Source of the DNA: Candidatus Magasanikiibacteriota bacterium
GTDB lineage: Bacteria; Patescibacteriota; Patescibacteriia; Magasanikbacterales; UBA922
Direction: 5' to 3'
Assembly (NCBI GenBank): GCA_018651085.1
Contig: JABIEQ010000001.1
Location: 1 to 39,914 of the forward strand
Length of the DNA: 39,914 nt
Part shown: positions 8,636-12,538 of the stretch, piece after piece
How the letters are laid out: each line of letters starts with the position of its first letter
Numbering within the stretch: the first letter of the stretch is position 1
Translations under genes and position numbers: made by a program
The notes under the pieces: generated by a model
Seen by the model: the letters and a program-made list of their open reading frames with translations, nothing else
The model's database searches: none
What the model was told of the DNA's origin: nothing

Positions 8636-8650
8636 TACTCTTTTCTTTTT

Positions 8651-8683
8651 AAAAAGACCCACAAAATTGTGGGTCTTTTTTTT
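8651..8683 (+). terminator. Intrinsic terminator of rplA
   Basis: A long stem, AAAAAGACCCACAA with TTGTGGGTCTTTTT, closed by a very short loop and followed by T residues (8676-8683). Confidence 0.92.
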
Positions 8684-8685
8684 GT

Positions 8686-8714
8686 TTGCCAGAGGACTTG
8701 TCATTTGGTACACT
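8686..8714 (+). promoter_or_regulatory. Promoter of the deoxynucleotide operon
   Basis: TTGCCA, 17 bp, TACACT with a TGG extended -10. Expected start near 8721. The -35 coincides with the TTG codon at 8686 that would otherwise be a possible start, which favours the ATG at 8734. Confidence 0.8.
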
Positions 8715-8733: not shown

Positions 8734-9606
8734 ATGCCTATGTCAGCATTTGACCACCAATACCAAACTATTCTTACCCGTATTATGGATGAAGGTCATG
8801 AATTATATGACCCGCTTCATGATATTAAGATGAAAGCGCTTCCTGGCCTCACGATGGAACTTGATATAGAAAAAGACGGTCTGCCCATCCTCACACTACG
8901 GAAGATGCCCCTTCGCTTGTGTATTGCGGAACAAATTTGGTTTTTAATGGGAGAAAAGAACCCTGATATCTTTTTAGGAGATTTTACTAAAATTTGGCAT
9001 GATTTTCTTGAAGAAGATGGTACCATTGGTTCAGCATATGGATATCGCTGGCGTCATCATTTTGGAAGAGATCAGATTGGTGACCTCCTTAAATTATTAC
9101 AAAAAAACCCCTACTCTCGTCACGGTGTTGTGATTGCATGGGATCCTGCTGACGACGGGTTAGGATCAGGAACAGTCAAAAAAAATGTTCCGTGTCCATT
9201 TAGTTTTACTGTAAACATTATAGGAGGAAGACTTCATCTTCATAGCATTATCCGTTCTCAAGATATGATGCTCGGAAATCCCCATGACACCGCTGGATTT
9301 GCATTACTTATGATGTTTTTAGCACAAAAGCTTGAAGTAAAACCAGGGAAACTCACCGTTTCTATGAGCAATGCCCATGTATATGAAAATCACTACGAAC
9401 AAGCACGTGAAGTAATTAACCGAGAGATTTCTCACGACCCAATTCATATTGCTCTTCCCCCTGAAAGTTTTTCTCGTGCTGAGCAAGGTGACAAAGCTCT
9501 TGTTTCTGACATATTTTCTCAAATAAAATCTCAATATTCTCCACAACCTTCTTTAGGACGTATGAAAATATCTGAATACGAGAATATTGATATGATGACT
9601 ATTTAA
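8734..9606 (+). CDS. Thymidylate synthase-family enzyme with a dCMP-type active site
   Basis: 290 aa. Folate-dependent pyrimidine C5-methyl or hydroxymethyltransferase fold. Catalytic Cys154 (VPCPF), Glu66 (AEQIWF), Tyr102 (AYGYRW), Arg129, Arg174-Ser-x-Asp177 (RSQD) and His215/Tyr217 (NAHVYENH) align one-to-one with E. coli ThyA. Asp185 (GNPHDTAGF) occupies the place of E. coli Asn177 (LPFNIAS), the residue that recognises uracil. Asp at this place is known from T4 dCMP hydroxymethylase and from TS Asn-to-Asp variants that prefer dCMP. The N-terminal RTGT phosphate-binding motif is also absent (DPLHD instead), and Arg127 of ThyA is His130 here. It is first gene of the operon, 2 nt before the next. 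An automatic label would be thymidylate synthase; dCMP as substrate is my inference. Confidence 0.85.
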   Translation: MPMSAFDHQYQTILTRIMDEGHELYDPLHDIKMKALPGLTMELDIEKDGLPILTLRKMPLRLCIAEQIWFLMGEKNPDIFLGDFTKIWHDFLEEDGTIGSAYGYRWRHHFGRDQIGDLLKLLQKNPYSRHGVVIAWDPADDGLGSGTVKKNVPCPFSFTVNIIGGRLHLHSIIRSQDMMLGNPHDTAGFALLMMFLAQKLEVKPGKLTVSMSNAHVYENHYEQAREVINREISHDPIHIALPPESFSRAEQGDKALVSDIFSQIKSQYSPQPSLGRMKISEYENIDMMTI

Positions 9607-9608
9607 TT

Positions 9609-10274
9609 ATGGCTGTTCTTACTCGAAAAGAAATGCTTGAAACTATTAATAATGGTGGTATTTCGTTTACTCCACCTCTTGATGGGTTTCAACTTCAACC
9701 CCACGCAATTGATCTACGTCTTGGGACAACTTTTTATATCCCAAAACCATGGCGTATCACCGAACAAGGACGAGAAGCCATCAATGTTGACCCACTTCGT
9801 GAGATTGATGACGGGAATTCTTTTGATATTGTCCAACTTTCTCCTGGTCAGCACTTTGAGATCCTTCCTAACGAATTTATTATTGCTGCAACGCTTGAGA
9901 AAATTGCTATTAACAATACAAAACTCATGGCAATTTTATATCCTCGTTCATCCATTAACCGTCGAGGTTTATCCGTTGATTTAAGTGGTATTATTGATAC
10001 AGGTTATAGTGGAACGCTCATGATCCCTATTCAAAATAATACAAACAACCAAGTTATTAAAGTGTACCCTGGTGAACGTATTTGCCAGATTGTTTTTGAA
10101 GAGCTTATTAGTGCTGTGCCAAAAGATACGGTGCATATTCATGGTCTTAACACGGCAAAATATATTGATGCGAATGATCAGACCCTTAGTTCTAAAAAAG
10201 ATAAGCGTGAAGAAATAGATCTTATCAAAAAAGGTAATCTTGATAAGTTAAAAAAACAATACCCTATTACTTAA
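9609..10274 (+). CDS. dCTP deaminase/dUTPase-superfamily protein
   Basis: 221 aa trimeric beta-fold nucleotide hydrolase family. The N-terminal half is Dcd-like: HAIDLRLGTTF at 32-42. Motif 2 is YPRSSINRRGL (111-121). Motif 3 reads GIIDTGYSG (127-135), with Asp130 and Tyr133 as in dUTPases, and the stretch after it is LMIPIQN. The catalytic Glu138 of E. coli Dcd (VLEFYN) aligns with Pro140, so deamination by the known mechanism looks impossible. Motif 4 is YPGERICQIVF, again dUTPase-like. The glycine-rich dUTPase motif 5 is missing and a lysine-rich tail replaces it. The likely activity is a dUTP or dCTP diphosphatase giving dUMP or dCMP. Automatic annotation would probably say dcd. It starts 2 nt after the synthase gene. 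Confidence 0.8.
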   Translation: MAVLTRKEMLETINNGGISFTPPLDGFQLQPHAIDLRLGTTFYIPKPWRITEQGREAINVDPLREIDDGNSFDIVQLSPGQHFEILPNEFIIAATLEKIAINNTKLMAILYPRSSINRRGLSVDLSGIIDTGYSGTLMIPIQNNTNNQVIKVYPGERICQIVFEELISAVPKDTVHIHGLNTAKYIDANDQTLSSKKDKREEIDLIKKGNLDKLKKQYPIT

Positions 10275-10287
10275 TAGCATATTACGT

Positions 10288-10743
10288 ATGTTAGATATTC
10301 CTTATCCATATATGCCAGAAGGGCGAACCATTCTTTATGTTTCAATGGATAATTCCTTCATGCAAGATGCAAAAAAAACAGCACAGGAATATTCTCTTGA
10401 TAAAAACTACCCAAATGCATCAGTTATTGTAAAAGACGGCATGATTATTGCTCGTGGTGCTAATGGATCGACGTATCATGATGAACATGGTTGTGAGAGA
10501 CGTCGACAAAATATTCCAACAGGACAAGGATATGAACTTTGTGAAGGATGTCATCCTAAAAACCATGGTGAACCGAGCGCACTTCGCGATGCGAAAGAAA
10601 AGGGTGTTGATCCAACTGGTGCTGATCTTTATTTATGGGGGCATTGGTGGTGTTGTGAACCTTGCTGGAACATGATGATTGATGCTGGAATTAATAATGT
10701 CTATTTACTTGAAAATGCCCACGAAATTTTTGTAAAAAAATAG
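10288..10743 (+). CDS. dCMP (deoxycytidylate) deaminase-family protein
   Basis: 151 aa zinc-dependent cytidine/deoxycytidylate deaminase fold. Catalytic zinc ligands are His93 with proton-shuttle Glu95 (HGEPSAL, where HAE is usual) and Cys123/Cys126 (CEPC). The region GCERRRQNIPTGQGYELC (68-85) with CEGCHP matches the insert of dCMP deaminases and offers Cys69, Cys85, Cys88 and His89 for a second structural zinc. The family converts dCMP to dUMP; some members also turn 5-methyl-dCMP into dTMP. It is third in the deoxynucleotide operon, 13 nt after the Dcd-fold gene. CMP/dCMP specificity cannot be read from sequence alone. Confidence 0.85.
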   Translation: MLDIPYPYMPEGRTILYVSMDNSFMQDAKKTAQEYSLDKNYPNASVIVKDGMIIARGANGSTYHDEHGCERRRQNIPTGQGYELCEGCHPKNHGEPSALRDAKEKGVDPTGADLYLWGHWWCCEPCWNMMIDAGINNVYLLENAHEIFVKK

Positions 10744-10759
10744 TAACTCTCACGTGCGT

Positions 10760-11341
10760 ATGAATCATGTTGTGGCTATTGTTGGTATGTGTGGCGCTGG
10801 GAAAAGCACCGTTTCAGATATCTTTGTAAAAAAAAGGTATGCCTTTGTTCGTTTTGGTCAAATCACTCTTGATATCGTGAAAGAACGTGGTATGGAAGTG
10901 AATGAACACAACGAAAAACTTGTGCGAGAAGGCTTACGACATGAACATGGGATGGCAGCCTTTGCAACACTTAATATTCCCAAATGTGACACACTTCTTC
11001 AAGAGAAAAATCTTGTTATCGATGGTTTATATAGTTGGTCTGAATATAAAGTCATGAAAACTCATTATGGGAAACGATTGTTTGTCGTAGCGGTCTACAG
11101 TCCTCCATCAGAACGCCATGAACGACTTTCTCATAGACATTCTGATAAAGAAGACACTGATCTACGACGCCGGCATTTTACAAAAGAAGAGGCTCGCTCT
11201 CGTGATTATGCTGAAATCGAGCACATTGAAAAAGCAGGGCCTATTGCTATGGCTGATTATACTATTATCAATGCGTGGGACGAACAAACGCTTGAAGAAA
11301 ATACCAACCGTATTATTGACCTTATTCAAAACAGATCATAA
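10760..11341 (+). CDS. P-loop kinase, UPF0200/dephospho-CoA-kinase-like
   Basis: 193 aa. Walker A GMCGAGKS is at residues 9-16. The pattern RFGQITLDIVKERG, then LREEHGM-like (LRHEHGM), then VIDGLYSWSEYKVM, and a C-terminal ADYTIINAW is that of the UPF0200/AAA_18-type small kinases best known from archaea, which resemble adenylate and dephospho-CoA kinases. The natural substrate is unknown. Its place between dCMP deaminase and DHFR suggests a (deoxy)nucleoside monophosphate kinase, by inference. A GTG at 10754 would add two residues; the ATG at 10760 was chosen because it is preceded by T like the other starts. It lies 6 nt before the DHFR gene. Confidence 0.75.
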   Translation: MNHVVAIVGMCGAGKSTVSDIFVKKRYAFVRFGQITLDIVKERGMEVNEHNEKLVREGLRHEHGMAAFATLNIPKCDTLLQEKNLVIDGLYSWSEYKVMKTHYGKRLFVVAVYSPPSERHERLSHRHSDKEDTDLRRRHFTKEEARSRDYAEIEHIEKAGPIAMADYTIINAWDEQTLEENTNRIIDLIQNRS

Positions 11342-11824
<483 letters not shown>

Positions 11825-11827
11825 GCT

Positions 11828-12538
11828 ATGGGAACTTTTATCATGTTAGATGGCATTGATGGATCTGGGAAAAGTACTATAATCTCTTCTTGGGTAGAGC
11901 ATCTTGAACAACGCCAAAAAGTATTTAGATTAAAACCGTATTGGCTCACGCACCATAAGCATCCGACCCTTCAAGAACTTGAATCATATGATGTGATTGT
12001 CTCTTCTGAGCCTACATCTGTGTGGGTTGGAGCCGCTATCCGTCAAGAACTTGTTCAAAATCATGATGATTATTCTCAAAACACGGTTGTTCGTGCGTTT
12101 GCCCTTGATCGACTCATTTTATACAAACGTCTTCTTGTTCCTCTTCTTGCACAAGGAAAAACAATCATTCAAGATAGAGGAGTAAGCACCTCTCTTTGTT
12201 ATCAACCACTTGAACCACACGGTATGAGACGAGCAGACATTGCCCTTGTTCGAGGGAATGATTTTGCACTTACCCATGCCCCTCATCACCTGGTTATTAC
12301 TGATATCCCCGTGTCATCTGCTATGAATCGATTAGGAGGTCGCACTGAAAAACAAGATAATGCAGTGTTTGAAAAAGCATCATTTCTTGAAGATGCTCGA
12401 CAAACTTTTTTATCAAAAGATTTTCAACAATACTTTACAAGGCAAGATACAGCTATTCACTTGTTGAATACTGACAGCTCAATTGATATAATGAAAAAAG
12501 ATGCTATTACTCTTTTAGAGTCCATCCTTCATTCTTAG
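11828..12538 (+). CDS. tmk: Thymidylate kinase
   Basis: 236 aa. It phosphorylates dTMP to dTDP. The P-loop GIDGSGKS is at 9-16. SEPTS (61-65) stands in place of the more common REPGGT. DRGVSTSLCYQ (117-127) is the DR-S-YQ signature that contacts thymine and phosphate. A LID-like GGRTEKQDN lies near residue 165. The protein is slightly longer than the 205-215 residues of most bacterial Tmk. It is last of the nucleotide enzymes in the operon, and 11 nt separate it from the membrane protein gene. Confidence 0.88.
   Translation: MGTFIMLDGIDGSGKSTIISSWVEHLEQRQKVFRLKPYWLTHHKHPTLQELESYDVIVSSEPTSVWVGAAIRQELVQNHDDYSQNTVVRAFALDRLILYKRLLVPLLAQGKTIIQDRGVSTSLCYQPLEPHGMRRADIALVRGNDFALTHAPHHLVITDIPVSSAMNRLGGRTEKQDNAVFEKASFLEDARQTFLSKDFQQYFTRQDTAIHLLNTDSSIDIMKKDAITLLESILHS

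Follow-up and report, generated by a model that had tools for sequence, protein, structure and literature searches.

The window, that is, the whole stretch of 39,914 nucleotides analysed, constitutes an entire contig (C3) of a CPR genome (G000; 947 kb, 99% complete) and carries on its plus strand a run of six genes separated by gaps of 2-13 bp, comprising (i) an Asp-type thymidylate synthase (TS) homologue, hereafter TS-D, predicted from its PF00303 match, alignment and phylogeny to be a dCMP C5-methyltransferase (8734..9606); (ii) a member of the DCD/dUTPase superfamily, called a dCTP deaminase by profile (9609..10274); (iii) a zinc deaminase of a distinct clade (10288..10743); (iv) a P-loop kinase (AAA_18/AAA_17; 10754..11341), a probable nucleotide kinase whose role is not established; (v) a dihydrofolate reductase (DHFR; 11348..11824), the expected recycler of dihydrofolate from reductive methylation; and (vi) a thymidylate kinase (11828..12538), the last three being assigned by profile matches. 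Direct reading of the sequence places a terminator-like hairpin followed by a T run (8650..8684, plus strand) between rplA, encoding L1, and this module. In many genomes encoding TS-D, the module is surrounded by nusG/rplK/rplA and gatB. That the window copy stems from a phage or prophage is unsupported, given the flanking nusG/rplK/rplA and gatB, the absence of any match in viral_contigs and a single weak phage match for the deaminase. Homologues of the P-loop kinase adjoin the TS-D module at two further loci (L043, L159), and in genome G250 one sits next to a canonical TS.

TS-D is a genuine thymidylate synthase homologue. Its stop-free frame encodes 290 residues that match PF00303 with an E-value of 3e-53 and a score of 181 bits, the threshold being 24.3, and the nearest named relative, from a Candidatus Magasanikbacteria genome, displays 75% identity. 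Translation could start at the ATG at either 8734 or 8740, and a longer frame opening with TTG at 8686 is an unlikely start since it begins just past the hairpin, which ends at about 8684. Fold searches retrieve TSs of many kinds, matches that do not discriminate the substrate. Alignment with E. coli ThyA bore out the correspondences put forward in the initial annotation, with C154 (codon 9193-9195) equivalent to the nucleophile C146, the RSQD motif R174-D177 to R166-D169, the HxY motif H215/Y217 to H207/Y209 and, at the base-recognition site, D185 of GNPHDTAG (codon 9286-9288) to N177 of GLPFNIAS. In addition, P155 (codon 9196-9198) occupies the position of E. coli H147, a replacement absent from that annotation which, together with N177D, makes up a published signature pair (PMC8670742).

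The general catalytic residues are retained in TS-D (E66, W88, Y102, R129, C154, R174, S175, D177, H215, and Y217), and the comparison with E. coli ThyA discloses a common fold, the catalytic Cys and equivalents of Glu58, Trp80, Tyr94, Arg166, Asp169, His207, and Tyr209. On the other hand, TS-D carries the changes N177D, H147P, W83F, S180G, and R127H/Q (E. coli numbering). The enzyme thus conforms to the ThyA family in its fold and in Cys146, Glu58, Tyr94, Arg166, and Asp169, but not in the Asn177/His147 pair, replaced here by Asp185 and Pro155. Two phosphate-site arginines, 21 and 127, are missing from the window protein. The replacement of the RTGT phosphate loop, also pointed out in the initial annotation, is real in this protein and its closest relatives (L003, L004, L124), which have lost Arg21 (residues 21-32) and gained a C-terminal extension (SEYENID.., residues 275-290), unlike the remaining subfamily; as a marker of specificity it was discarded, R-T-G being kept by most members.

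A survey of 380 genomes of the phylum separates the TS matches into two groups with a wide gap between them, one comprising 15 genomes with 47-100% identity to the window TS-D (E < 1e-80) and the other about 180 weaker matches (E > 1e-37). In E. coli numbering, all 17 members compared from the first group, including three from named records, display Asp at 177 and no His at 147, whereas the 15 TSs compared from the second all preserve Asn177 and His147. A class-level sample of 204 genomes, partly overlapping with the first, contributed 12 further Asp members, each with D177 and P147. N177 and H147 are also preserved in six more canonical TSs, most of which come from families where Asp-type enzymes occur as well, two of the six being from the family of the window genome. 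Altogether, Asp at 177 and the absence of His147 are observed in 29/29 TS-D and Asn177 with His147 in 21/21 canonical CPR TSs, so that an Asp arising in this column by chance or misalignment can be rejected. The residue equivalent to P155 is Pro, Val or Leu across the subfamily, and N151 (codon 9184-9186), three positions before the catalytic Cys, is an invariant Asn in the 17-member alignment. The C-terminus is TS-like in most members (..KIVL), with the extended tail described above in the window protein. Sharing about 30-36% identity with the canonical CPR enzymes, TS-D is a separate CPR subfamily.

The TS-D clade is supported at 93/93 in the tree and is sister to the Asp-type TSs of the Xp12 phage group, with a joint branch supported at 96/87 and the canonical TSs apart; the program warned of long branches, above all that of T4 gp42, which possesses D177 and is too divergent to be placed. 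The closest phage enzymes, of which four were read (YB23, DoCa5, RcSimone-Hastad, and Tedan), carry D177 and P147. TS-D therefore agrees with the Xp12-group dCMP methyltransferases in the Asp at 177, the non-His residue at 147 and the common clade. Phage Xp12 is a Pamexvirus (PMC9206674) with 100% 5mC in its DNA (PMC7653180), and its route combines a dCMP methyltransferase with a 5-methyl-dCTP deaminase (Wang & Ehrlich 1982; Kuo et al. 1982, cited in PMC12088426), the latter specific for 5mdCTP, which it converts to dTTP (PMC12088426). Methylation precedes deamination and a thymidine nucleotide stands at the end, the order proposed here for the TS-D locus.

The comparison rests on phage relatives of Xp12 and not on its own record. 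These relatives contain a parallel set of genes, pyrophosphohydrolase - TS (D177, P147) - dCMP deaminase - DHFR, with a PRA-PH/MazG pyrophosphohydrolase encoded immediately ahead of the TS. In common with the CPR locus, they have a DHFR, a pyrophosphohydrolase (predicted on the CPR side) and a TS-family enzyme that falls within the same wider clade and carries Asp177 and Pro147, but their deaminases differ in sequence type and their pyrophosphatase is MazG-like and not DCD-like. Xp12 further differs in that 5mC is also placed in the phage DNA and that its deaminase works on the triphosphate, whereas in the CPR the genes lie on the chromosome, with TS-D as the apparently sole dTMP synthase. The Pamexvirus TSs have been described as enzymes converting dUMP to dTMP (PMC9206674); despite this description, the YB23 enzyme (L119:3899-4768) and its relatives carry Asp177/Pro147, the reading being of these relatives and not of AXL1 itself. 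Judged by these residues, YB23-type TSs of Pamexvirus relatives are likely dCMP methylases.

According to one source, position 177 dictates TS specificity, and its change from Asn to Asp leads to the use of dCMP with 5mdCMP as the product (PMC8670742, and mutagenesis cited through it); the same study ranks positions 177 and 147 as the top two discriminating TSs of cytosine-modified from unmodified contigs. The proposal in the initial annotation that TS-D acts on dCMP is supported by the subfamily-wide replacement of both residues, the grouping with TSs of 5mC phages (96/87) and this mutagenesis, the activity being inferred in the absence of activity data. As to the product, that annotation had left the choice between 5-methyl-dCMP and 5-hydroxymethyl-dCMP, of which the methylated nucleotide is likely, again by inference without activity data.

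A hydroxymethylase resembling T4 gp42, which has in common with TS-D the Asp at the base-recognition site, is hardly credible here. In the T4 enzyme, the D179N substitution lowers kcat by up to ~3600-fold, and Asp145, three residues before the Cys, is required, D145N being dead (PMC6400193); hydroxymethylation yields tetrahydrofolate, whereas methylation yields dihydrofolate (PMC6400193). TS-D lacks the Asp(-3)/Ser signature of gp42, with the invariant Asn151 in place of the required Asp and the signature Ser not conserved, and, instead of ending without a tail, preserves in most members the TS-like C-terminus by which the active site of TS is sealed. In addition, DHFR occurs in 14/15 TS-D genomes of the phylum sample. 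It is on account of this Asn, these tails and the associated DHFR that 5-methyl-dCMP is favoured. MilA-type CMP hydroxymethylases display Ala in place of Ser at E. coli position 167 (PMC5175136), a change not found in TS-D, which retains Ser175.

The zinc deaminase displays the H-x-E / C-x2-C zinc site (H93-x-E95, C123-x2-C126) and the fold of dCMP-deaminase-like zinc deaminases, its best fold and profile matches being dCMP deaminases. Known representatives of these (S-TIM5, PBCV-1, T4, human, and S. mutans) share the fold and zinc site at about 20-25% identity, whereas the 10288 protein forms its own clade, with extra cysteines (C69, C85, C88) and a GHWWCCEPC motif. It is the sole PF00383 match in the window genome; TadA was not seen there with this profile and may be missed or absent.

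Members of the deaminase clade occur in 14/380 genomes of the phylum sample, 13 of the 15 with TS-D and one of the 365 others, and in 18/204 of the class sample, 16 of the 17 with TS-D and two of the 187 others (Fisher p about 3e-21 and 1e-20, respectively, and 3e-15 for the class genomes without the shared ones). These tests are uncorrected for relatedness, and the members are spread over many families. Among the 15 TS-D genomes, a clear clade deaminase is missing from G318 and from G008, which is 84% complete and contains only a weak relative; conversely, the clade is present without TS-D in G362, beside a double ThyX, and in G552 and G504. Within the window's family (f1), both types switch together, G114 and G128 encoding a canonical TS and a HAE/PC-type deaminase, and G000 and G099 encoding TS-D and the special deaminase.

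This association could also accommodate an ordinary order of steps with an unusual TS, in which the deaminase converts dCMP to dUMP, which TS-D, its Asp notwithstanding, then methylates to dTMP. The adjacency of the two genes, the existence of paired dCMP deaminases and canonical TSs in relatives, and the need for dTMP in genomes devoid of other synthases are all compatible with it. We nevertheless regard it as unlikely, given that the Asn177 to Asp change is the best-studied dUMP-to-dCMP switch (PMC8670742), that Asp and a non-His residue at 147 are fixed in all members, with sister enzymes from the 5mC phage group, and that a simple dCMP deaminase would need no separate clade switching with the TS type.

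The supply of dTMP bears on the fate of the methylated nucleotide. A second ThyA or ThyX in the complete genome, for which the initial annotation had proposed a search, was sought family by family in the window genome and none was found; ThyX is absent from every TS-D genome, and thymidine kinase was not found in 12/15 of them. With neither ThyX nor thymidine kinase, TS-D is the sole recognised source of dTMP in these 12 genomes, whereas the window genome does contain a thymidine kinase, making salvage possible there. E. coli ThyA is likewise a sole TS, with DHFR and tmk nearby. If TS-D makes 5-methyl-dCMP, de novo dTMP could arise in those cells only through its deamination, a step that would most naturally fall to the deaminase travelling with TS-D; DCTD-type enzymes do accept 5-methyl-dCMP (PMC12088426). 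The contention that TS-D does not form dTMP directly would then be right, dTMP probably remaining the end product by way of the adjacent deaminase.

These absences weigh on the notion that 5-methyl-dCMP, or hydroxymethyl-dCMP, is made for the cell's own DNA, the purpose served by the known phage Asp-type TSs (PMC8670742, PMC7653180), since the 12 genomes without ThyX or thymidine kinase would then have no de novo source of dTMP. With the deaminase, DHFR and tmk coming next in the run and a chromosomal housekeeping setting in many members, we hold DNA modification to be very unlikely.

The DCD homologue shares its superfamily and the dUTPase-type motifs with E. coli Dcd and Mycobacterium Dcd:Dut but differs in the catalytic Glu, which is Pro in its whole clade. 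Pro140 (codon 10026-10028) stands at the position of Glu138 of E. coli Dcd, whereas D130 of the GIID motif is kept. This clade comprises 16 genomes (E < 1e-55, the next match at about 1e-20), 14 of which encode TS-D, and displays Pro in 16/16 cases; the other CPR DCDs compared have Glu throughout (14/14). Glu138 we take to be indispensable for deamination by E. coli Dcd, the enzyme on which E. coli relies in place of a dCMP deaminase; on this assumption, the 9609 protein is not plausibly a deaminase of the known mechanism, and its candidacy as a source of dUTP was rejected. As it is the sole dUTPase-superfamily match, no dCTP deaminase is recognisable in the window genome. Retention of the dUTPase-type Asp makes pyrophosphate hydrolysis of dUTP or dCTP plausible, and the protein is predicted to be a dUTPase or dCTP pyrophosphohydrolase and not a deaminase. 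Pro-type homologues are also encountered in a genome whose TS is canonical and whose deaminase is of the dCMP type (L110, G364) and in one without a TS match (L111, G284), occurrences that fit a housekeeping dUTPase or dCTPase role.

The explanation that we favour, with somewhat better than even confidence, is an inverted route from dCMP through 5-methyl-dCMP to dTMP, whose substrate, product and order of steps are inferred. TS-D would methylate dCMP, and not dUMP, with 5,10-methylene-tetrahydrofolate, yielding 5-methyl-dCMP and dihydrofolate, the latter to be recycled by the DHFR of the same run; the adjacent lineage-specific zinc deaminase would remove the 4-amino group from 5-methyl-dCMP to give dTMP, which the thymidylate kinase would phosphorylate. 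For the DCD homologue, the probable role is hydrolysis of dCTP to furnish dCMP, sanitation by hydrolysis of dUTP or 5-methyl-dCTP, or both. The net outcome would be dTMP formed without passing through dUMP, by a sequence of steps that turns the textbook one around. Against this reading stand the exceptions to the association of the deaminase clade with TS-D, the thymidine kinase of the window genome and the loss of the two phosphate-site arginines from the window protein.

A further reservation concerns the deaminase, whose sequence does not reveal its substrate and which could act on dCMP or, as in Xp12, on 5-methyl-dCTP. In the latter case, 5-methyl-dCMP would be phosphorylated and the order reversed at the triphosphate level, with dTTP as the product, an arrangement that has the 5mdCTP-specific enzyme of Xp12 as a precedent (PMC12088426) and could find its kinase in the P-loop gene directly after the deaminase. 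It appears improbable given the thymidylate kinase in the same run, the non-phage type of the CPR deaminase and the exposure of free 5mdCTP to incorporation into DNA; the choice of the monophosphate is itself an inference.

Whether some CPR lineages perform all de novo thymidylate synthesis through dCTP, dCMP, 5-methyl-dCMP and dTMP, bypassing dUMP and dUTP with the help of a deaminase dedicated to 5-methyl-dCMP and of a pyrophosphatase of DCD fold that descends from dCTP deaminase, is in our estimate evenly balanced. The known dTMP synthases, ThyA and ThyX, are both described as methylating dUMP. Outside the precedent of cells infected by phage Xp12, the methyl-first order is so far unreported, and no report of it in a cellular organism was found in the open-access literature, subscription papers lying outside the search; as a cellular de novo route it would be new, by inference and without biochemistry. 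If true, it would represent a third way of making T that avoids uracil nucleotides as intermediates and would connect the making of thymidylate in cells with the chemistry that 5-methylcytosine phages use. Proteins of CPR genomes annotated as 'ThyA' or 'dCTP deaminase' may also act on another substrate than these names imply.

Several gene arrangements deserve mention besides. In family f164, which contains several Asp-type members, one ORF of G545 (L163:1595-3625) seems to encode a fusion between a dCMP deaminase and a TS (Asn type), both canonical, and L003:2046-3565 contains two adjacent deaminase copies, the second within a 338-residue ORF with a further region. Many CPR genomes (G062, G142, G021, G043, and others) display a tandem-like ThyX, one long ORF with two weak PF02511 matches. 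In G362, an apparent tandem ThyX (G362:C21:48507-49877; L112:7379-8974) adjoins a deaminase of the TS-D-associated clade, and for this reason the double ThyX might also act on dCMP.
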